A model generated the notes under the pieces. The model had not been told where the DNA came from, searched no databases, and saw only the letters and a list, made by a program, of their open reading frames with translations. The position numbers were made by a program, and so were the translations under genes. Of a DNA stretch of 48,879 bases, positions 6,216 to 42,288 are shown piece by piece. The stretch is from Chloroflexaceae bacterium (GTDB lineage: Bacteria > Chloroflexota > Chloroflexia > Chloroflexales > Chloroflexaceae), in assembly GCA_012031225.1 (NCBI GenBank), contig JAAUTZ010000017.1, forward strand, positions 1 to 48,879, given 5' to 3'. Numbering within the stretch: position 1 is the first letter of the stretch; each line of letters starts with the position of its first letter.

Positions 6216-8987
6216 GTGAACCACACAAGGAACCGACGTTGGGACAAGTACATCCATTGGAGCCTAAGCCTCACGCTCGTGCTGTGCGTGCTGCTGGGCG
6301 TAGGAAGTGTATCCGCCACTGATCGCCCCGCGAATACGCTGGAGCGAGGTGAGGTGAGTGGCAAGGTGAGCCTGCCCGATGGGACGGGCGTAGCAGGCGT
6401 GCGCGTAGCCGCCAGTGGGCGCACCACCACCATCAGCAATGCTGCTGATCGTTACACCACCACCGCCCGCGATGGAAGCTACCGCATGCGCCTACCTGTG
6501 GGCGATTATGCCCTGAGCATTCAGCCGGCCCAAATCACGAACGTATCGCCGGAATGGGTCGTGACTACGGCCCCCGTGCCGCTGCGGGTTGCCGCCAATA
6601 GCAGCACCACGCAGGATTTCACGGTGCAACCCGCCACGGTAACGGTGCAGGGTCGGCTTCAGTTTCCAGAAACTGAACGCGATCTCGCCACAGATGATCG
6701 CCCAGAACGCAACCCCATATTGGCGTGGGTGCGAGCCGAAAACCGTGAGGGGCAGGGGAACACCGTCACAGTGGGCAGCGATGGCCGCTTCAGCATCAAG
6801 GTGCTAGCAGGCGGCGTGAACCTCTCGATTGCACTGACGAACCCGCGCTGGATCGTGGATAGCGAGCGCCTAAGCTACACAGCTGAGTCCAGCGAGACGA
6901 TTGAGGTACAACCTAATCCCCTGATCGTCAGCGAGCGCGGCGGCTCCCTAAGCGGAGTGGTTACGGTGCTAGGCGAACAGCGCGAGCTTGCTCCAGCGGG
7001 AGTGCCCGTGCGAGCGTGGCGCACCGATGGTACCGGCGTGGTGCGGACAACCACCGATGTGAGCGGAACCTATCGCCTCAATGTCTCGGCGGGGGTGTGG
7101 CTGGTGCAGGCCATGCCAGTAGACACGGAGAACTATGATGTGTATGGCAACCCCTACGATCCCGCCATGTTTGTGCCCGCGCAAGAGGCGCAACGAGTGC
7201 GCGTAGATGGCGAAACCTCCGTCACTCAGAATTTGCAGATTGCCCGCGTAGATACGATGGTGCGCGGCTCTGCTGTAGATAGTCGCACTGGCGCACCGCT
7301 TGGGGATGGCGTGAATGGGCACGCCTATGTACTCTACCGCAACAACGAAGGGCGATTGGTACGGGCAAATGGTGCGCCACTCCGCGATGGCACATTCGAG
7401 CTAGGGCTGTCCTCACTGGTGGCGACAAGCTACCGGGCTGGATTGTACTTTGCGCCGAATGCGGGCTACGAAGCCCTTGCGAGCGTGCCCTTTAGCCTGA
7501 CCGCTAGCACGCCAATTTCACTCTCGATTCCGGTGCTGGTCAACAATAGCCAGATTACGGGCACCCTCAGCACTGCCGATGGCACGCCCGTGACGGGGGT
7601 GCGTGGGCGCGTGCTTGCCCTGAGCAACTTTGGCGGCACAGCGTTCACGCTGCTCGATCCGCGCACGGGGAGCTACCAACTTAATGTGGGCACAACTGAT
7701 GTGCGTGGGCAAGGCGGCACGACATGGCGGGTGAGCATCCAACTCGATTCGCGCAGTGGCTATGTCCTTGACCGCCCCCGTGTGCAGACAGCATTTCTGC
7801 CCTACAACAATGGCGCAGGCAGTCGGGTCACCGTCCCGTTCACGGCTTCGCAAGTTTCGGCTCTGATCAAAGGGCGCGTCGTGCTGCCCACTCCTGATCA
7901 ACTTGCCTATGCCAGCGATGATCCCGACGCTCAGCTCCAAACGCTGCGCAATCGGGCGGCAGGTGTGCGGGTGGTGGTGCGTGAAGTTGGCAGCGATGTT
8001 GCTGGAGCCTATACCAACTGGGGCTTTACGGATCGGGATGGCAACTTCAGCGTGCGTGTGGCAGCCGGTGAGTACCGCGTGAGTGTGCATACCCGCCCGC
8101 TCCGGGATCTGCGCCGCCTGCGAACGCTGATTGCCCCCGCCCCCGTGACTGTGGAGGTGGCGGATGGAGCAACCGTGGCTACCCCCGATCTGCCCTTCCG
8201 TCTGCCGGATGCCCCCGTAACCGGACAGGTCACGTTTGATGCTACGGGGACACCGGCCCTTGTGCGGGCCCGCGCCGCCGATGGTGCAACCGTGCAGGCT
8301 TTAACCGATATACGCGGCAACTATCAACTTGATCTGCTGGGTGGCGTGCGGTGGAGCGTGATTGCCACGAGTGCCAACAACGATGGCTTCCTCAAGAGCC
8401 AGCGCGAGGTCTTTACGCCAACGGTTAGCACTAGCCCGCAACCCGTCAACTTTACGCTGGCACTCGTCGAGCGTGAACGGATGCCGCGCAGCACGACGTT
8501 CACCTTCGATGCCGCAGAGAGCCAAGACCTACGCCTTGCCAATGGCTCTGGCATTCAGGTTCCGGCGGGAGCGTTGGGCGTGAGTGGCACCGTGTTGCTC
8601 GTGGCCCGCCCGCTACCCCAGCTTGCCAGCGATCACGATCTGGAGCCGATTGCGTTTGGCTACCGCTTGCACGCCTTTGGCGAAGATGGCCGCCCGATCA
8701 CGCAGTTCCTTGCGCCCGTCACGCTGCTGATCCCGTTCACCGCCGATCAGGTGCAGGCACTCGGCACGACAACCGCACGGCTAATCCCCGCCTATTGGGA
8801 TGAGCCGAGCGCAAGCTGGAAGAGCGTAGATAATGTGAGCATCATCTCCGATGAGCAGGGCGGCGGCGTGGTGCAGGTGGTGGTGGATCACTTCACCGAT
8901 TACGCGCTAGTTACGCCCGCTGAGATCGAACCTGCCCAGCAGCCGAGTGGCGTGCAGGTGTACCTACCGTTGGTTGTGCGCCAGTAG
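6216..8987 (+). CDS. Large secreted carboxypeptidase-regulatory-like repeat protein with YLPLVVRQ tail
   Basis: This 923-residue protein starts at GTG with AGGAGGG just upstream. A signal peptide occupies roughly residues 1-37 (basic start, LTLVLCVLLGVGSVSA). The body is a series of CarboxypepD_reg-like beta-sandwich repeats. Each opens with a GxVxLPDGTPVxGV-type strand and ends with DGSYRMRLPVGDYALSI-like text; I count at least five, including segments near residues 45-110, 245-300, 445-495, 550-630 and 665-710. The last ~170 residues form a different domain, vaguely ZU5-like, with IQVPAGALGVSGTVLL. The protein ends VYLPLVVRQ, a tail shared in form with the S8 protease at 11158. A strong inverted-repeat terminator follows. 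It is probably a cell-surface or sheath structural protein; exact role unknown. Confidence 0.85.
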   Translation: MNHTRNRRWDKYIHWSLSLTLVLCVLLGVGSVSATDRPANTLERGEVSGKVSLPDGTGVAGVRVAASGRTTTISNAADRYTTTARDGSYRMRLPVGDYALSIQPAQITNVSPEWVVTTAPVPLRVAANSSTTQDFTVQPATVTVQGRLQFPETERDLATDDRPERNPILAWVRAENREGQGNTVTVGSDGRFSIKVLAGGVNLSIALTNPRWIVDSERLSYTAESSETIEVQPNPLIVSERGGSLSGVVTVLGEQRELAPAGVPVRAWRTDGTGVVRTTTDVSGTYRLNVSAGVWLVQAMPVDTENYDVYGNPYDPAMFVPAQEAQRVRVDGETSVTQNLQIARVDTMVRGSAVDSRTGAPLGDGVNGHAYVLYRNNEGRLVRANGAPLRDGTFELGLSSLVATSYRAGLYFAPNAGYEALASVPFSLTASTPISLSIPVLVNNSQITGTLSTADGTPVTGVRGRVLALSNFGGTAFTLLDPRTGSYQLNVGTTDVRGQGGTTWRVSIQLDSRSGYVLDRPRVQTAFLPYNNGAGSRVTVPFTASQVSALIKGRVVLPTPDQLAYASDDPDAQLQTLRNRAAGVRVVVREVGSDVAGAYTNWGFTDRDGNFSVRVAAGEYRVSVHTRPLRDLRRLRTLIAPAPVTVEVADGATVATPDLPFRLPDAPVTGQVTFDATGTPALVRARAADGATVQALTDIRGNYQLDLLGGVRWSVIATSANNDGFLKSQREVFTPTVSTSPQPVNFTLALVERERMPRSTTFTFDAAESQDLRLANGSGIQVPAGALGVSGTVLLVARPLPQLASDHDLEPIAFGYRLHAFGEDGRPITQFLAPVTLLIPFTADQVQALGTTTARLIPAYWDEPSASWKSVDNVSIISDEQGGGVVQVVVDHFTDYALVTPAEIEPAQQPSGVQVYLPLVVRQ

Positions 8988-9010
8988 CGAAGCGAGCATA
9001 GGAAACAATC

Positions 9011-9049
9011 GCAGGTGTCAGAGGCAAGGGCGACTCCTCTGACACCTGC
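9011..9049. terminator. Bidirectional hairpin terminator with 14-bp perfect stem
   Basis: GCAGGTGTCAGAGG (9011-9024) and its exact reverse complement (9036-9049) flank an 11-base loop. It sits between the convergent 6216-8987 gene and the CPBP gene. There is no long T-run on either side, so efficiency is uncertain. The arm contains the AGGTGTCAG core of the repeat family seen at 34.7 and 38.7 kb. Confidence 0.75.
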
Positions 9050-9080
9050 TACCTTTCACCGAACACCTAAGAGCCACACC

Positions 9081-9818
9081 TTAGCTAGCCGCCACGAGTG
9101 CAGCCTGTATCGCAATGATGGCGATCCCATTCTGCATAGCGTGCAGCAGAATGCCCGGCACCACCGATCCCGTGTACTCGCGCAGCAACGCCAAGATCAG
9201 CCCCATCACAAACAGCGCAGGCATCAGCACGGGCAGAAAGTGCGCCAACGAGAACAGCAGCGCACTGACCAGCACAGCCGGTAGTAGCCCCCAGCGTTCG
9301 CGCAGCGTGCCATACAGCATGCCGCGAAAGAATAGCTCCTCTGAGAGTGGCACAATCCCCGCAACCAACACGAGCAGGGCGATCAAGCCTGTGCTGCCGA
9401 ATGGCTGCCCGCCTGTGATCGCATCCACTTGCGGGTTCTCAAATTCACCGACGATCTGGATCAGCGCGAAATTGACCAAGCCCATCGCGCCTAGCCCAAC
9501 GATCAACACCAGTGGCACGAGCAGCAGGGTGCGGGTGGACACATTGCGCCAGCCGAGTGCCGCCCAGCCGTGCTTGCGTGCCGCAAAGAGATACACCCCA
9601 ACAATGACCGCGAGGTAAATCCCCATCGAGGAGAGGTAGACCGCCGGCACAAGCATCCCGCTATTCATGGGGCTAGCCCCGCCCGCCAAGTGTGTCAACC
9701 CGGCGGCGGCCACGAGCAACACCACCGCACTTGCCGCCGTGAACAGGATCACCGCGAGGATCTCCAGCCAACCCCACAGCATGGGCGGGCGCGGTGCAGG
9801 CACGTTGGTTTCAAGCAT
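9081..9818 (-). CDS. CPBP family intramembrane glutamic endopeptidase
   Basis: This 245-residue polytopic membrane protein has about seven hydrophobic segments. The Abi/CPBP (CAAX protease, Rce1-like) motifs are present: PLSEELFFRGML supplies the paired Glu and the Arg of EExxxR, and LFSLAHF gives the FxxxH motif. A final HAMQNG is typical of motif 4. These enzymes cleave within the membrane; bacterial members process prenylated or bacteriocin-related peptides or act as maturation factors, and the substrate here is unknown. The start is placed at ATG 9818 because AAGGAG lies 7 bases upstream; an ATG 18 bases earlier has no such site. It follows the MFS gene on the same strand after a gap of 77 bases. 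Confidence 0.9.
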   Translation of the reverse strand: MLETNVPAPRPPMLWGWLEILAVILFTAASAVVLLVAAAGLTHLAGGASPMNSGMLVPAVYLSSMGIYLAVIVGVYLFAARKHGWAALGWRNVSTRTLLLVPLVLIVGLGAMGLVNFALIQIVGEFENPQVDAITGGQPFGSTGLIALLVLVAGIVPLSEELFFRGMLYGTLRERWGLLPAVLVSALLFSLAHFLPVLMPALFVMGLILALLREYTGSVVPGILLHAMQNGIAIIAIQAALVAAS

Positions 9819-9895
9819 GGGCAACTCCTTCCGCATTTGAACGTCTGTTATGGATTATACCAAATGGGCAAGGCGCGTCAATGCCATCTCTGATC

Positions 9896-11146
9896 TCAGA
9901 GCTGCTGAAGCTGCGGCGTGCGCCACAGGCAGAAGCCAACCACGCCGCCATGCAGGATCGCCGCCGCCGCCACCACCAACGCCACACTGCCGCTCCACTC
10001 GACGAGTGCGCCCGCCACCATGCCGCCTAGTGCCGTCACGCCGAGCGGCAGCATCACAAACACACTCATCACCCGCGCCCGCAGCTGATCCGGCACTGCG
10101 GTCTGGATCAGCGTATTGGCGAGAGCCATCGTTAACACACCGGCTGCGCCCATCAAGGCGATCAAGAGCATGCCCGCCACAAAGAAGGGCAGCCCCACCA
10201 AAAGCAGCAGCAACGGCACCAGCCCCGCCGCCGCCCAACTCAGCCAGCGTCCGCGCCGGATCCGCTCGCTCCGTTGGGCCAGCAGCAGTGCCGCTAGCAT
10301 GGCTCCCGCGCCATTGGCTGCCCCCAGCCAGCCCAGCCCACGCGCATCGGTGAGGAACACATCCCGCGCAAACACGGGCAGCAGGGGGATGTAGACATAC
10401 GCAAAGAGGCACACACTCGCGGCAATCAAGAGCAGCGTGCGGACAATTGGCTCAGTGCGGATGTAGGTGAAGCCGGCCGCATATTGATCGCGGCGGCGCG
10501 TGGCAGGGGTAGGCCCGGCAGGCGGCAGGCGCATGAGCAGCAGGCTGACGAGTACCGCAATGAAGCTCACGCTATTCAGCAGGAAAGCCATGCCCTCACC
10601 TACGCTGGCAATCACGAAGCCCGCCAACGCTGGGCCCAGTGTGCGCCCGGCATTAAACATGATCGAGTTCAGCGCAATCGCATTGAGCAGATCCTCACGT
10701 CCAACCATTTCAATCGTGAAGGCTTGGCGAGCAGGAGCCTCAAACGCTCGCGTTGCGCCCATTCCTGCCGCGAGCAATGCAATCTGCCAGTAGATCACGT
10801 TGCCGCTGAGCGTAAGCAGGGCGAGCAATAATGCCAATAGGAGCGCAACCGCATTGCTGATGATGAGCAGTGTGCGGCGCGGCATGCGATCTGCCAGCAC
10901 GCCGGCCGGAATGCTCAACAGCAAGATCGGCAAGGCGGAGGCTAGCCCGATAGCCCCCAGCAACATGGGCGAATCAGTCAGCCGCAAGACGAGCCAGCCC
11001 TGCGCTGTGAATTGCATCCACGTCCCGATTAGCGAAGCCAGCTGCCCTGTGAAGAACAGGCGGTAGTTGCGGTGGCGCAGTGCCCGCAGCATCGCGGGCG
11101 GCTGCGCTGGCGGCGAGGGCGGCGCGATAGGTTGCGAAGGATTCAC
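9896..11146 (-). CDS. MFS exporter (MFS_3 / EntS-like)
   Basis: This 416-residue protein has about 12 hydrophobic helices. The N-terminal RHRNYRLFFTGQLASLIGTWMQ block is characteristic of the MFS_3 group, which includes enterobactin exporter EntS and macrolide efflux-like carriers. The loop 2-3 signature is GVLADRMPRRTLL, close to the MFS GxLaDRxGRRxxl motif. It begins with GTG preceded by AGGAGTG and sits 11 bases downstream of the S8 protease stop, so it is likely cotranscribed with it. The substrate is unknown; association with a secreted protease suggests nothing specific. Confidence 0.88.
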   Translation of the reverse strand: MNPSQPIAPPSPPAQPPAMLRALRHRNYRLFFTGQLASLIGTWMQFTAQGWLVLRLTDSPMLLGAIGLASALPILLLSIPAGVLADRMPRRTLLIISNAVALLLALLLALLTLSGNVIYWQIALLAAGMGATRAFEAPARQAFTIEMVGREDLLNAIALNSIMFNAGRTLGPALAGFVIASVGEGMAFLLNSVSFIAVLVSLLLMRLPPAGPTPATRRRDQYAAGFTYIRTEPIVRTLLLIAASVCLFAYVYIPLLPVFARDVFLTDARGLGWLGAANGAGAMLAALLLAQRSERIRRGRWLSWAAAGLVPLLLLLVGLPFFVAGMLLIALMGAAGVLTMALANTLIQTAVPDQLRARVMSVFVMLPLGVTALGGMVAGALVEWSGSVALVVAAAAILHGGVVGFCLWRTPQLQQL

Positions 11147-11157
11147 ACCACTCCTGC

Positions 11158-14100
11158 TTAGCGGTAGATTGCCCGCTGAATCTGCGGGAGGTAGAACTGG
11201 TACGGCGCATCGCCAACTGTCACCTCGACCGGAATGGTCGTGCGCGGCGTAAGCGGATCGTTGCTGGTAATCACGATCTCGCCCCGTGCGATGCGGGTTG
11301 CATCCAAGGGCGGAAGCCCCCGCAACGTAAAGGGCACTGTTACCGTTTGATCGGGCGCGACACTCCCTTTCGCCGTTGTGCTAGGCACAATCCATGCAGT
11401 CGCATCCATCTGCGGGCGGAGTTGCAGCGTGAGGCTACCCGTTACTGGCGTAGTTGCGCCACAGCCGATCACCTGCGTTGTACCGGATTGCGTTTGCAGG
11501 GCAATCTGGGTGTACTGCGTCAGAGAGGGTATTGTATGGTAGTTCAACTGGATCCGCCCATCGTGGCTCAAGAGCATCTGGAAGGTGAAGCTCTGGCCAT
11601 CTTCAGGATTGAAGCCAAACAGAGGCACGGCTTCATAGCTCACCAGCAAGCCCTCTGGCACTTCCGCCGCACGGATCTTCCCGCCCAACGCGGGGTTCAA
11701 ATCAGAGCGCAACGGAGCCACTGCCGCGCCTGTTGTTTCGGGGATGGAGGTGCAGGAGGGCGTGAAGAATTTCAGATCCGCACGCGGCGGGTCAAACAAG
11801 ATGACCCCATTCGAGCTAATCCAAACCTGTTCAACGGAACGTCCCAGAAACACAAGCGGGTTGGTCAAGGTCAGTGGATCGGCGACACTATCGTCACTCA
11901 GTTGGAAGGTATAGGCATCCTCTGGCAGTTCATACCACTGCACTGCTTGCCTATCTGCGGGCACATCGCTGCGCCACACACTGGCAACTGCGGTTGGCAC
12001 AGCAAGGCTGTAGGTGAGCGGCTGGGTTCCTGTATTGTTGATTGTAACCGCTAGATCCGAGCTACCCCCGAAACTGAGGGCGGCAAGCGATGCAGCCGGA
12101 GCCGAACTGATCTGGGGCTGATCCGGCTTGAGCGCGAATGTCAGCGATACCGTGCCGGTTCCGGCGATCTGGCGTTGCTGCGTAACGAATTGATAGGATG
12201 AGACCAGCACCGTGTAGGGCTGGCTGCGCTGCGGCAAGGTCACGCGGAAGTTGCCGTCAGCATCTATCGGCACGCTCACGCCATCTACGATCTGGGCTAC
12301 GCCACTGAGCGGTGTGCCGGTGCGCTCATCCTGCACTTGCCCCTGCACCTGCACAAAGCCATCTGGTTCAGGCACAGTGATCGTTATGTCAACGGGCTGC
12401 AACGCCTGCGTGAGGTCATCCGTGCCAACCAGCACCCGCGCCTGATACGTGCCCGGCGCAGCTACTTGGCTCATATCCACCGCGATCTCGACATTGGCGG
12501 TAGCCCCTGCCGCAATCGGTGCAAGCTGCTGCGGCACGCCCAACCACGCGAGATCTACCTGTGCTTCGGCAACCGCCGCAAACGCATCTATCCGGCCGTG
12601 GCCATAAATACTGTTGGGCACTGTCACGGCGGGGCAGTTGGGGGTTGTTTCCGATGTAAAGCGGGTATCGGTAATCGGTTTGGTTGTGCTAATCAAGATC
12701 CGGTAGGTTTCATCGTAGTTGCCGATCAGCTGCGGATTGGCTGACCATAGCAACGCAACAGCACCTGCCACGACCGGGCTAGCCATCGAGGTGCCCTGCA
12801 ATGTGGTGTACTGGCTGGCACCAATGTAGGTCGAGCGGATCTGCGTGCCGGGCGCAACCACATCTGGCTTCAACTGACCCTCACTGCCGGGCCCACGCCC
12901 ACTGAATGTGGCAATCTGATCGGTGCGGGTGGTTGCACCTACGCCTACGGCCTGCACATAATCGCCGGGCGAGCCGACACTGCTACAGCCGCGTGAGCCA
13001 CTATTGCCTGCTGCAAAGACGGGGAAGATGCCTGCCGCCCGCCATGCCGCCACATAGTTCAGGTAGAAGTTGTCGCCGCCCGTACTCGCAAACGAGCCAT
13101 TGATGATGTGCGGGCGCAGATCGGGGCGCGGGTTGCGCTGCTGCTCATTGGTGGGAGCGAGCATCCACTGCGCCGCCAGTATCAAGTCAGCTTCGGTGCA
13201 GCTTGAGGTGCGGCAGCCGCGTGCCGCCACCCACTGGCTGCCGGGCGCAACCCCAACCGCCGGGCGGTTGGCGGCGGTATCACCCGCCCCCGCCATAATA
13301 CCCATCACATGCGTACCGTGTCCGTTCTGATCACTTGGAGCGGGAAATAGCCGTGCCGGATCAAACCAGTTGTAGGCATGCACGCGACTTCCGTCGGGGC
13401 GATAGCCGCGATACTGCTGGATCAGTGCAGGGTGATCGCCCAGTACGCCGCTATCAATGTTGGCAACTACGACCCCTTGCCCAGTAATGCCAAAATCCTG
13501 CCACACCCGCTCTGCCCCAATCTGGGCGATGTGCCACTCGATTGCGCCAGATTGCGCGGTGCTGATCGGATCGGTTGCGCTCAGGTCAACCACGAGGGGC
13601 TTGTCGGCGAGTGGATCGGGGACATCTAAGGTCATGGCATATTCTGCCCGCAGTGCAGCCACATCGGTGCGGGCGGCAAGGGCTTCGAGTTCGGCCTGCG
13701 TGCCTTCGATGAGCAGCGCATTGGCAACCCAGAGTGGCGTGTGGGCAATGTTGCGCTGCGTGAGCCACGCCCGCAGATCACGCTGGCTTTGCTCGGCGGT
13801 GCTGGTCAGGGTGCGGTAGACGTACTCGCCGCGGGCCCGCCAATCATCTATTGTATATGCGAGTGAGAGATCGGGGCGTTCATCCATAAAGACCAGAAAC
13901 TCGGCTTTGCCATTCGGGGCGGCGGCAAGCTGCTCGCGGATCAAGGGATCAATTCGCTCGGCTTGGTTTGGCAGTTGCACCGTCTGGAGGGCGGCAGGCA
14001 GGTTCAGATCGGCAAGCACCGGCGGGCGAGCTTCAGCTTCATACAGGCGCGGCGTACCTTCCGTGCCACCCGTGTTGGTGATCGTCAGGTTGAAGGTTTG

Positions 14101-14280
14101 GCGCGAGCCAAGCTCTACCCGTTCGGTAATCTGGGACGGCGTAACCGTATAGGCGGCTTCACCCGCTTGCGCCTGTAGCGGCGCGGGCTGGGCGGGTGGC
14201 AACCCCGATAGGAGAACAAGCAACATGGTGAGCAGCAGCGAAAGCATACGGGAACGACGCAAGGCGGGCATAGTGGTCAT
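11158..14280 (-). CDS. Secreted S8 (subtilisin-like) serine protease with carboxypeptidase-regulatory domain
   Basis: This is a 1040-residue protein with a signal peptide at residues 1-~40 (MLSLLLTMLLVLLSGLPPAQ core). An inhibitor_I9-like propeptide region is followed by the catalytic domain. The triad is Asp276 (NIDSGVLG), His321 (NGHGTHVMG) and Ser498 (LQGTSMASP), with the oxyanion Asn in FAAGNSGS. After the catalytic domain come an Ig-like stretch, a CarboxypepD_reg repeat (~residues 645-715), a further beta domain and a last domain with ARGEIVITSNDPLTPRTTIPVEV. The C-terminus is YQFYLPQIQRAIYR, resembling the YLPLVVRQ tail of the 6216 protein. Its ATG overlaps the stop of the PhaR-like gene (14277-14280, ATGA), and GGAGCT precedes it. 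Likely role: extracellular proteolysis or processing of surface proteins. Confidence 0.93.
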   Translation of the reverse strand: MTTMPALRRSRMLSLLLTMLLVLLSGLPPAQPAPLQAQAGEAAYTVTPSQITERVELGSRQTFNLTITNTGGTEGTPRLYEAEARPPVLADLNLPAALQTVQLPNQAERIDPLIREQLAAAPNGKAEFLVFMDERPDLSLAYTIDDWRARGEYVYRTLTSTAEQSQRDLRAWLTQRNIAHTPLWVANALLIEGTQAELEALAARTDVAALRAEYAMTLDVPDPLADKPLVVDLSATDPISTAQSGAIEWHIAQIGAERVWQDFGITGQGVVVANIDSGVLGDHPALIQQYRGYRPDGSRVHAYNWFDPARLFPAPSDQNGHGTHVMGIMAGAGDTAANRPAVGVAPGSQWVAARGCRTSSCTEADLILAAQWMLAPTNEQQRNPRPDLRPHIINGSFASTGGDNFYLNYVAAWRAAGIFPVFAAGNSGSRGCSSVGSPGDYVQAVGVGATTRTDQIATFSGRGPGSEGQLKPDVVAPGTQIRSTYIGASQYTTLQGTSMASPVVAGAVALLWSANPQLIGNYDETYRILISTTKPITDTRFTSETTPNCPAVTVPNSIYGHGRIDAFAAVAEAQVDLAWLGVPQQLAPIAAGATANVEIAVDMSQVAAPGTYQARVLVGTDDLTQALQPVDITITVPEPDGFVQVQGQVQDERTGTPLSGVAQIVDGVSVPIDADGNFRVTLPQRSQPYTVLVSSYQFVTQQRQIAGTGTVSLTFALKPDQPQISSAPAASLAALSFGGSSDLAVTINNTGTQPLTYSLAVPTAVASVWRSDVPADRQAVQWYELPEDAYTFQLSDDSVADPLTLTNPLVFLGRSVEQVWISSNGVILFDPPRADLKFFTPSCTSIPETTGAAVAPLRSDLNPALGGKIRAAEVPEGLLVSYEAVPLFGFNPEDGQSFTFQMLLSHDGRIQLNYHTIPSLTQYTQIALQTQSGTTQVIGCGATTPVTGSLTLQLRPQMDATAWIVPSTTAKGSVAPDQTVTVPFTLRGLPPLDATRIARGEIVITSNDPLTPRTTIPVEVTVGDAPYQFYLPQIQRAIYR

Positions 14281-14717
14281 AGCTCCTTGTCTGGTGGTGA
14301 GTCAGGGTACAGCAATTGGTCAAGGGTGGCGTTCAGGTGGGCAATTTGGGCTTGCAGCTCAAGCACGTCGCTGCGGCGCGGAATGCCGAACTGGGTCAGG
14401 TCAGCCGGATCAGGCGGCTCTGCCAGCCACGCGGCACGGCGTTCCTGTTGGCGTTCACGGAAGGTTTCTAACACAAGGCTTCCAGATTGGATCAACTGGG
14501 TCAAGAGGCGGTTCAGGTCAGGCTGTTGGCTAGCGGGCATTTCGTGGGCGACAATCTGGGCTAGCACCGTCGCGGTGATCTCGGCACCGCTTTCGTTGTC
14601 GCGCACCTCGATCTGCTGTCCAGTGCGGATCAATGCCGCAATCCCTTCGAGCGTAATATAGCGTTTATGATGTGTGTCGTAGAGCTTGCGGTTGGCATAT
14701 TTCTTGATCTGGATCAT
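14277..14717 (-). CDS. phaR: Polyhydroxyalkanoate synthesis regulator, PhaR type
   Basis: This 146-residue protein opens with the PHB/PHA accumulation regulator DNA-binding domain: MIQIKKYANRKLYDT, then RYITLEGIAALIRTGQ and EVRDNESGAEITATVLAQI. The middle resembles the second PHB_acc helix; the C-terminus holds a predicted coiled coil (VLELQAQIAHLNATLDQLL). PhaR homologues repress phasin and PHA synthesis genes and bind PHA granules. The start at 14717 matches the family N-terminus; 13 upstream residues in frame are unlike the family. A TGC-TATAAT extended -10 sits at 14789-14797. The phasin gene lies immediately upstream on the same strand, which fits, while coupling to a secreted protease downstream is unexpected. 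Confidence 0.88.
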   Translation of the reverse strand: MIQIKKYANRKLYDTHHKRYITLEGIAALIRTGQQIEVRDNESGAEITATVLAQIVAHEMPASQQPDLNRLLTQLIQSGSLVLETFRERQQERRAAWLAEPPDPADLTQFGIPRRSDVLELQAQIAHLNATLDQLLYPDSPPDKEL

Positions 14718-14788
14718 ACCCTGCCCATCAGTACGGGAAGCCGTGCGGGTATGCAATAGCCCCTCACTCCCGTATACATACGCACTGC

Positions 14789-14797
14789 ATTATAGCA
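14789..14797 (-). promoter_or_regulatory. Extended -10 promoter for phaR
   Basis: Minus-strand TGCTATAAT: TATAAT is at 14789-14794 with TGC directly upstream. It is about 72 bases from the ATG at 14717 and lies in the 229-base gap below the phasin gene. No convincing -35. Confidence 0.55.
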
Positions 14798-14946
14798 TGC
14801 CGCATCTGCCAAAAGGGTGAATTCTGCGTGAGGATTCGGTAAAGGTTCGGTTATGGGTGGGGGAAAGTAATTGGGGTGCGAAGAGCCGCGTCAACGCCAC
14901 GGCTCCCGCACCGAGTATGATGCCAAGCACTCAGGTCTGCGTAGGG

Positions 14947-15417
14947 CTACTTCTCAATCGTGCGGCGCAGCTCTTCAACGCGGGCGGTGAGCTGGGCAAC
15001 CCGCGCACTCAGTTCATCAATGTCGCGCTGCGAGGGGATGTTCAAGCGATTGAGGAACTGCTCAATGTTGCTCTCAAACGACGTGCGGACATTCTCGGCA
15101 GTGGCGGTAGCATTGGCTTGCATACCTTCCACATCCACGCCGGGCACCGACGATGCACCCGGCTGGGCGGCACGCATCTGCTCCATCACCTGATTGACAA
15201 CCTTATCGGCATCCTTCTGGGCAATTTCGCCGCGCTCCGCCATGCGCTTTACAAACTTGTCCATCTCCTCCATCGAGACCGCCACCATGCCAATGCCGGC
15301 AAGGATCGTGCGGCGCACCGCCTCGTTGAGCTGGGCCATTTCAGGGCTAACGGTCTGCGGCTCGTCAATCTGGCGCACCTGTACTTCTATCTCTTCTTCG
15401 TGGGGTTCAGTCGTCAC
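14947..15417 (-). CDS. Phasin-family / PHA granule-associated protein
   Basis: This 156-residue, mostly helical acidic protein has the PhaF/PhaI-like layout. An N-terminal amphipathic helix reads AVRRTILAGIGMVAVSMEEMDKF, followed by KRMAERGEIAQKDADKVVNQV. The C-terminal coiled coil is IPSQRDIDELSARVAQLTARVEELR, the form found in poly(hydroxyalkanoate) granule-associated proteins. Such proteins coat PHA granules and influence granule number. It lies one gene upstream of the PhaR-type regulator, which supports the call. A TGTGG-TATAGT element at 15515-15525 is a likely promoter. No PHA synthase is present in the window, so the polymer machinery must be elsewhere. Confidence 0.82.
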   Translation of the reverse strand: MTTEPHEEEIEVQVRQIDEPQTVSPEMAQLNEAVRRTILAGIGMVAVSMEEMDKFVKRMAERGEIAQKDADKVVNQVMEQMRAAQPGASSVPGVDVEGMQANATATAENVRTSFESNIEQFLNRLNIPSQRDIDELSARVAQLTARVEELRRTIEK

Positions 15418-41692: not shown

Positions 41693-42262
41693 CTATGGTG
41701 TGGCAATCGTGATCAGGCGGTGCGTCATATCCTGCACCGAGCCATTCTCGATAATATACTCGCCGATACACGAGACGAGCGTCAGCCGCTCGTCTCCGGT
41801 GGGGAGAATGTACTGCACCTGATCGGGCGTGACCCACACCTGCTCGCTGATATAGTACACAAACTCGCGTCCGGCGGCATCGTAGAGGAAAATCGGATCG
41901 CCGATCTGGGCCTCGCGGAGCCGTTCAAAAGGAGCCGGGATCTCGGGGGCGGCGCGGAAGCGGAGGACATGCCCCCAGAATACGACATTCTCGCCCATGC
42001 CCGGCATGGCACTCTGATTGAACCAGCCAATGTCGTGATCGGGCACAATCGGGTAGCCGTTGGCATCCGTGCCCGCATTGATCACGGGCGCACTCAGCCC
42101 AATCGAGCCAATATACATCCAGACCGGCGGCTGCGGATTCTCGATCTGGGCTGGCCCAACTGGCTGAGCCGGTGCTGCTGTGACGAGCGGCGGTGCGGTA
42201 AAGAATGGTAGGGTACTGGCTAGGCCCAAAAGCACCAGTAGCAGTAGTAGTGGTCGTCTCAT
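41693..42262 (-). CDS. Sortase (class E/F-like transpeptidase)
   Basis: This 189-residue protein has a signal/anchor (PLLLLLVLLGLASTLPFF) and the sortase beta-barrel: IGSIGLSAPVINAG, DHDIGWFN, MGENVVFWGHV with catalytic His98, LTLVSC with Cys165 and MTHRLITIA with Arg182. All three catalytic residues are present. Sortases cleave LPxTG-like signals and join the protein to the cell surface or to pilins. The start is put at ATG 42262 (GAGGGAG upstream); GTG 42274 is an alternative. A TGC-TATACT promoter lies at 42308-42316 inside the SQR remnant. A candidate substrate with an LPVTSTG tail is encoded at 46612. Confidence 0.9.
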   Translation of the reverse strand: MRRPLLLLLVLLGLASTLPFFTAPPLVTAAPAQPVGPAQIENPQPPVWMYIGSIGLSAPVINAGTDANGYPIVPDHDIGWFNQSAMPGMGENVVFWGHVLRFRAAPEIPAPFERLREAQIGDPIFLYDAAGREFVYYISEQVWVTPDQVQYILPTGDERLTLVSCIGEYIIENGSVQDMTHRLITIATP

Positions 42263-42288
42263 GATCTCCCTCACTTACATTCAGCGTA

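Follow-up and report, generated by a model that had tools for sequence, protein, structure and literature searches.

Two secreted proteins and their C-terminal tails

The window, by which we mean the whole stretch of DNA that was analysed (48,879 nucleotides of a Chloroflexaceae bacterium, contig JAAUTZ010000017.1), encodes two secreted proteins that an earlier note described as ending in a common YLPxxxR tail. Both of the endings quoted there are present in ORFs of the window. The relevant features are:

6216..8987, + strand: ORF for a secreted multi-domain protein of 923 aa, with Pfam carboxypeptidase-regulatory-like beta domains and a heuristic signal peptide
8955..8981, + strand: YLP box VYLPLVVR at the C-terminus of the 6216 protein, identified by NF050076 and NF053834 scores
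11158..14280, − strand: ORF for a secreted S8 (subtilase) protease of 1040 aa, with Pfam Peptidase_S8 and a heuristic signal peptide
11161..11196, − strand: divergent YLP-like tail FYLPQIQRAIYR of the S8 protease, which aligns with box-like tails of orthologues

The 6216 protein ends in ...GVQVYLPLVVRQ. In a genome scan with NF050076 this tail scored 16.9 bits (cut-off 15), and the last 60 aa alone scored 16.1 bits with NF050076 and 13.6 bits with NF053834 (cut-off 10); the full-length protein in hmmscan scored 12.2 bits with NF050076, below its cut-off of 15. The two NCBIfam models (sort_motif_YLP and ultrashort_CTERM, 'YLP-box putative sorting motif-containing protein') describe the same motif as the 6216 tail, such that the motif itself was already known. 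We conclude that VYLPLVVRQ is a true member of the motif catalogued by NCBI, and a standard box. No orthologue of the 6216 protein was found at E ≤ 1e-20 in 40 other sampled genomes of the order.

The S8 protease ends in ...PYQFYLPQIQRAIYR. The NCBIfam models do not reach this tail: its last 60 aa gave no match to NF050076 or NF053834 at E ≤ 10, and it is absent from the 48 places listed by the NF050076 scan of the host genome. Most genomes of the order have one full-length orthologue of this protease, and such orthologues are confined to the order, for which reason we rejected it as a general processing protease. Their tails keep the shape of the box and not the YLP letters (IWMPIVYR, IILPIIYR, LLLPLVARR, LFLPQVSRR, WLGIVAR), and six f2 g6 orthologues have a different ending. 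The tail could instead be the last strand of the protease's own C-terminal domain, with a coincidental YLP...R, a reading compatible with any account of the box elsewhere. The silence of both models, the loss of YLP among orthologues and the six divergent endings all favour it. However, most other orthologues have tails resembling hydrophobic-LP-x-V-x-R at the aligned place, and S8 proteases from other families of the phylum end in NIYLPLVMRN, WVFLPVVMRQG or RRLIFPLAYRSS. We give a coincidental strand an appreciable but lesser chance, and consider that the window S8 protease probably carries a divergent box. The claim of a common tail thus holds strictly for the 6216 protein, which exceeds the NCBIfam cut-offs; for the S8 protease it fails with the models and holds loosely through the endings of orthologues. 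The divergence of the S8 tail leaves the equivalence of the two window tails weakly supported.

The box is abundant in the host genome and is carried by exported proteins

Searching the host genome with the pattern TAYYTNCCNNTNNTNNNNCGN gives 41 matches, as against 4 when the pattern is reversed. Of the 41, 31 fall no more than 20 residues from the stop of an ORF that has 80 or more residues upstream of the match, and NF050076 passes at 30 places. Outside Chloroflexota there were 15 matches, none of which closes a long ORF. Across the phylum, DNA-pattern counts are noisy, with the reversed control equalling or exceeding the forward count in many genomes, so we used the NF050076 scan instead. 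Pattern and HMM disagree for some genomes, such as G295 (30 forward against 4 reversed matches by pattern, 1 by HMM).

In ORFs from stretches selected for holding a box, a heuristic signal peptide was called for 65 of 81 ORFs with a C-terminal box and for 206 of the remaining 1138. Simple hydropathy heuristics, rather than a trained predictor, were the basis for calling signal peptides, lipoboxes and membrane segments alike. The proposal that the motif recurs in Chloroflexota on exported proteins is borne out by this comparison, in which we saw neither a chance-level frequency nor an equal presence in cytoplasmic proteins. The box occurs on proteins of unrelated folds (CAP, expansin, GHL10, LTD, S8, C25); it often follows a beta domain, and a linker often lies between box and host domain. 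Among exported ORFs from the same stretches, a lipobox was called in 2 of 65 boxed and 34 of 189 unboxed (p = 0.002, heuristic calls); boxed proteins are longer, and the lipobox difference could come from protein class. C-terminal membrane segments, again by heuristic, were called in 2 of 65 boxed and 21 of 189 unboxed exported ORFs, a depletion that is not significant (p = 0.08).

The box is not restricted to the C-terminus

We examined the position of the box in 142 boxed exported proteins, a set that leaves out nine ORFs judged by eye to be cytosolic or spurious (L049, L058, L092, L099, L116, L118, L129, L153 and L179). The box is C-terminal in 111, lies just after the signal peptide in 16, and lies between domains in 15; some of the interdomain cases may have arisen where a box-ended ORF was fused to the next one. 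The consensus is approximately [aromatic]-[R/S/T]-[V/I]-Y-L-P-L-[V/I]-x-R. L-P is present at all three positions in every box, as the search regex nearly forces, and V, I or L precedes the Y in 107/111 C-terminal, 14/16 N-terminal and 14/15 interdomain boxes. Neither the Tyr nor the Arg is invariant. The NCBIfam models also score over cut-off at the mature N-terminus of some proteins (L017, L054, L070 and others), although the name of one of them implies a C-terminal signal. In 106 of the 111 C-terminal boxes only 0–4 residues follow the R, and there is therefore no room for a membrane segment.

One family illustrates this freedom of position. Of 301 genomes, 24 contain members of the L069 family, with 28 matches in all. 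In 19 members the box comes after the signal peptide and in 3 it stands at the extreme C-terminus; no member has it at both ends. The five members lacking a box are two second copies (L312 and L313), whose N-termini resemble membrane anchors, and three proteins from genomes G053 and G093, which have no NF050076 matches. The members with switched ends form one clade in the family tree, and hence the change of ends was probably a single event. Reading the variant boxes of this family and of the S8 orthologues by eye, we found Y replaced by W, F or I and R replaced by G, A, K or N. L293–L295 have the N-terminal box FLFLPIVAQ. Since both residues are replaceable, no fixed reactive group is needed. 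We conclude that the box is not restricted to the C-terminus and that a literal "C-terminal tail", as originally proposed, is too narrow: the same core is also found behind signal peptides or in interdomain positions, and it switches ends within one family. We found no published description of this positional freedom.

Candidate partner enzymes

The positional data bear on whether the box is an ultrashort C-terminal sorting signal, at which an envelope enzyme would cleave and join the protein to an envelope component, in the manner of a sortase or of the C25-family PorU, with N-terminal boxes arising by chance or decay. The NCBIfam names suggest as much, and the C-terminal majority in the sample agrees with it. 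However, N-terminal and interdomain boxes share the core in many families, several over NCBIfam cut-offs; one family has changed ends; and the box lacks an invariant reactive residue, a membrane segment and a basic cluster. Nor do the candidate enzymes fit well. Sortase (PF04203) occurs in 25/25 box-rich and 26/28 box-null genomes; being nearly everywhere, it does not separate the two classes, and we rejected it. Peptidase_C25 is a more attractive candidate, present in 22/25 box-rich but only 2/28 box-null genomes, and in 9/11 families having a genome with at least 2 box matches compared with 3/69 others. However, it is missing from three box-rich genomes (G205, G269 and G034), and C25 proteins bear box-like tails themselves. 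Moreover, the S8 catalytic domain follows the distribution of the box outside the order about as well (9/11 against 6/27) as C25 does (7/11 against 2/27), as expected if both are carriers. C25 thus looks more like a carrier than a partner, and we regard a sorting signal as unlikely.

A CPBP protease is encoded between the two window genes (9081–9836), and MYXO-CTERM proteins are sorted by a CPBP protease according to PMC11980579. We set this candidate aside, since the box offers no membrane segment to cut.

A proposed docking model for the box

If the box works at either end, the search for a partner would shift away from enzymes that process C-termini and towards a molecule that binds the box. 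We propose, with a probability of roughly 0.5, that the YLP box acts as a short linear motif, docking exported Chloroflexota proteins non-covalently onto a conserved extracytoplasmic partner, which would retain them at the surface or in the envelope. Judging from sequence, a boxed protein would leave the cell via its signal peptide; a putative receptor would hold the box, which sits in a short linker near one terminus or between two domains, as an extended strand; and the protein so docked would remain on the cell surface or within the envelope layers. The observations behind this proposal are the enrichment of the box, its exported hosts, its freedom of position with a shared core, the switch of ends within a family, the lack of a following membrane segment, and the rarity of lipoboxes beside it, which is expected if the box replaces another anchor. 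One member of the L069 family, L307, has a lipobox-like N-terminus together with the box, which counts against docking. This computational analysis found no receptor for the box. An AlphaFold2 model of a small boxed family was uninformative (mean pLDDT 46.8, about 37–42 over the box).

A folding or quality-control role, with the box held by an extracytoplasmic chaperone or pairing with its own beta domain after export, would suit a hydrophobic, strand-like peptide that frequently follows a beta domain. It is improbable given the unrelated folds of the hosts, the linker that often separates box from fold, and one family in which some members lack a box. Least probable is that the box enters the membrane interface or binds other boxes, aggregating into an extracellular matrix with no dedicated receptor: a short hydrophobic core with Arg flanks could do so at either end, but the strict conservation of L-P seems to go beyond what mere hydrophobicity would require, and a proline in the middle is unfavourable to stacked beta sheets.

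Docking of this kind would differ from the known systems that the box most resembles. PEP-CTERM, GlyGly-CTERM and MYXO-CTERM signals (exosortase, rhombosortase and myxosortase) likewise mark dozens of unrelated exported proteins in a genome with a single short signature. These signals are tripartite, comprising a signature, a transmembrane helix and a basic cluster, as set out in PMC11980579; against that description, the YLP box has no membrane helix after it and is not tied to the C-terminus. The helix and basic cluster that follow the signature in tripartite CTERM and LPXTG signals were not found after the box. LPXTG shares LP with it, and sortases occur in nearly all genomes tested, but the box has neither T-G nor a membrane segment, and sortase does not distinguish box-rich from box-null genomes. 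In type IX secretion of Bacteroidota, C-terminal recognition of many unrelated cargo proteins involves PorU, a C25 peptidase, and C25 co-occurs with the box. However, the type IX CTD is an Ig-like domain needed for crossing the outer membrane, whereas the YLP box is a movable peptide of ~10 residues and the C25s of Chloroflexota look like box carriers.

SLH, LysM and choline-binding repeats are folded non-covalent wall-binding modules usable at either end. They resemble the YLP box in their position-independent use on unrelated exported proteins; the box, in contrast, is a short linear peptide and a member of none of these groups.

Our literature search found no paper naming the YLP box, YLPLV or NF050076 and none on Chloroflexota sorting or C-terminal motifs; the CTERM and annotation papers that it listed lack YLP in the title or opening of the abstract. 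Chloroflexota envelopes are unusual and layered. We tentatively suggest, at somewhat less than even odds, that the box may belong to a previously undescribed surface-display system, in which a position-independent peptide of about ten residues would bind one dedicated envelope receptor non-covalently, be shared by dozens of unrelated exported proteins within a genome, and have moved between ends in evolution. If so, the box could provide a ten-residue surface-display tag for Chloroflexota.

The YLP box in the window and the host genome

The earlier note quoted two endings, and ORF translation confirmed both on the following proteins.
Window 6216-8987 (+): 6216 protein, 923 aa, four carboxypeptidase-regulatory-like stretches, heuristic signal peptide
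Window 8955-8981: YLP box of the 6216 protein, NF050076 match over cut-off in the genome scan
Window 11158-14280 (-): S8 protease, Peptidase_S8 domain, heuristic signal peptide

The motif itself is already known: the NCBIfam entries NF050076 (sort_motif_YLP) and NF053834 (ultrashort_CTERM) both carry the description 'YLP-box putative sorting motif-containing protein'. The literature searched yielded no paper naming the YLP box, and we found no earlier account of its positional freedom or of the evidence against its being a classical C-terminal sorting signal. A DNA-pattern search of the host genome (4.2 Mb, 205 contigs) for YLP-hydrophobic-hydrophobic-x-R gave 41 matches, compared with 4 for the reversed pattern; over the window plus 35 fetched stretches, 31 of the 41 lay ≤20 residues from the stop of an ORF with ≥80 residues upstream. 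At E≤10, NF050076 matched 48 places in this genome; 30 passed the cut-off, window 8955-8981 among them. Its weak matches mean little, since 12 of the 14 control genomes also gave matches in the same search (2 over cut-off); at E≤0.15, none of the 14 matched.

The claim that the two proteins share a tail held for the 6216 protein, whose box exceeds the NF050076 cut-off, but the S8 tail was reached neither by NF050076 in the genome scan nor by NF053834. The S8 protease matched at E≤1e-100 in 29 of 41 genomes of the order, nearly full-length in 27 (own included) and over the catalytic part only in two genomes of family f4. At the aligned position, orthologues carry box-like tails (IWMPIVYR, IILPIIYR, IVPMVYR, LLLPLVARR, LFLPQVSRR) or related tails without proline (WLGIVAR, IIVMIYR); in six genomes of one genus (f2 g6) the end is unrelated. 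Distant S8 proteases end NIYLPLVMRN (genome G011), RRLIFPLAYRSS (G297), RRFWLPLVYAQIP (G034), WVFLPVVMRQG (G189) and RLIFPLIVRSPD (G149), and no such ending was seen on those of box-null f13 genomes or of box-positive G165. Because these orthologous and distant tails are box-like, the window S8 protease probably carries a divergent box. The two window proteins are at most ordinary box carriers.

Distribution across Chloroflexota

At E≤0.15, NF050076 matched in 65 of 301 Chloroflexota genomes, with at least three matches in 25 of these, from several families. Named GTDB species genomes were scanned for DNA encoding R-[VIM]-Y-[LF]-P-L-[VIM]-x-R. Among the 80 loci listed, of 111 stretches, 65 were from Chloroflexota as judged by record title (Anaerolineae, Thermoflexus, Chloroflexaceae, Oscillochloris, Roseiflexus, Herpetosiphonaceae, Ardenticatenaceae and others, with Candidatus Aquidulcis presumed to belong) and 15 were not; in none of these 15 does a long frame finish close to the motif.

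The box is not confined to the C-terminus

The window and the Chloroflexota loci yielded 151 distinct strict-box ORFs, of which 9 were judged cytosolic or spurious. Each of the 142 kept has exactly one box, ≤15 residues from the stop in 111, just after the signal peptide in 16 and between domains in 15, which does not support the idea that the box is a C-terminal tail as such. Sixty loci chosen by HMM score gave 36 C-terminal, 7 N-terminal and 2 interdomain boxes, with 4 dropped. All three classes share the same core, a likeness that the regex used in the search partly imposes (the DNA pattern used for the named loci forced R before V/I). N-terminal boxes, several of which pass the NCBIfam cut-offs, occur on CAP, GHL10, expansin, CBM96/DNRLRE and LTD proteins, among others.

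BLAST of N-terminal-box against C-terminal-box proteins gave a single pair, L069 and L077 (449 residues aligned, 43% identity), whose boxes lie at opposite ends. The box-free part of this family found 28 matches in 24 of the 301 genomes. Boxes, assigned by eye, were N-terminal in 19 (3 strict, 16 variants such as TVYLPLVVG, FRQWLPVVFG and FLFLPIVAQ) and C-terminal in 3 (YLPLVIRSSY, RIWLPAIFNARS, EIFLPTILR); one match was a fragment and five lacked a box. Of the boxless members, L312 and L313 are second copies whose N-terminus resembles a membrane anchor; G053 contributes two more and G093 one. Neither G053 nor G093 has an NF050076 match in the 301-genome scan. Boxed members occur in 22 genomes, and 20 of these have such matches (exceptions G083, G149). 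The C-terminal-box members form one clade (support 0.999), so one change of ends suffices. In the GHL10 family (6 genomes), the box directly precedes the enzyme domain in four members and is absent from two.

Most box carriers are predicted to be exported

The enrichment for signal peptides that the earlier note proposed to look for was found: 65 of 81 C-terminal-box ORFs have one, compared with 206 of 1138 other ORFs (own genome, 19/25 vs 77/348; other genomes, 25/29 vs 72/470; named loci, 21/27 vs 57/320). ORFs were called exported on a heuristic signal peptide and ≤1 further membrane segment. Among exported ORFs, lipoboxes are rarer in the boxed (2/65) than in the unboxed (34/189; p=0.002); for C-terminal membrane segments the counts are 2/65 and 21/189, respectively (p=0.08).

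A conserved cytosolic-looking protein, methylase-like by eye (L049, L058, L092, L118, L179), has RVYLPLVIR inside a conserved stretch, a false positive for the strict box. One locus (L063, G225:C1:816000-834000) holds four tandem boxed frames, RCC1-like by eye, with near-identical C-termini (CWG..GQLGDGRPL..) ending YLPMIVR or YLPMIIR.

Mechanism and partner search

The data argue against a signal that works only at the C-terminus, against a membrane-helix sorting signal and against a reaction at one fixed residue. They are consistent with a peptide that is bound by a partner and can sit in whichever linker is accessible. Two indirect points favour surface retention over release: lipoboxes seldom accompany boxes, and the boxless second copies L312 and L313 have membrane-anchor-like N-termini. 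One family member (L307) combines a lipobox-like N-terminus with a box. The layer described in the cited passage could be a docking surface; the passages on that layer do not mention the YLP motif.

Comparison of sortase, Peptidase_C25 and S8 gave no candidate receptor. Sortase (PF04203) was rejected as a partner, being present in 25/25 box-rich and 26/28 box-null genomes. C25 (PF01364) occurs in 22/25 and 2/28, respectively, and in the 301-genome sample a box match was found in 36 of 43 genomes with C25 and 29 of 258 without. Several C25 proteins themselves bear box-like tails, and in genomes outside the order S8 follows the box to a similar degree (S8, 9/11 vs 6/27; C25, 7/11 vs 2/27); C25 is therefore better read as a typical carrier.

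In two genomes (G067:C241:19403-21790 and G297:C16:6797-8426), a sortase match lies no more than about 1 kb after one to Peptidase_C25. The window encodes one of the genome's six sortase matches (41693-42274 (-); PF04203, 4.9e-18), with a signal-peptide-like N-terminus. Between the two tailed genes lies a CPBP/Rce1-like intramembrane protease gene (9081-9836 (-); PF02517, E 3.8e-21); MYXO-CTERM proteins elsewhere depend on a CPBP protease for their sorting, but the adjacency here may be chance. Genes for a PHA accumulation regulator (PF07879) and a phasin (PF05597) adjoin at 14280-15417 (-), upstream of the S8 protease.
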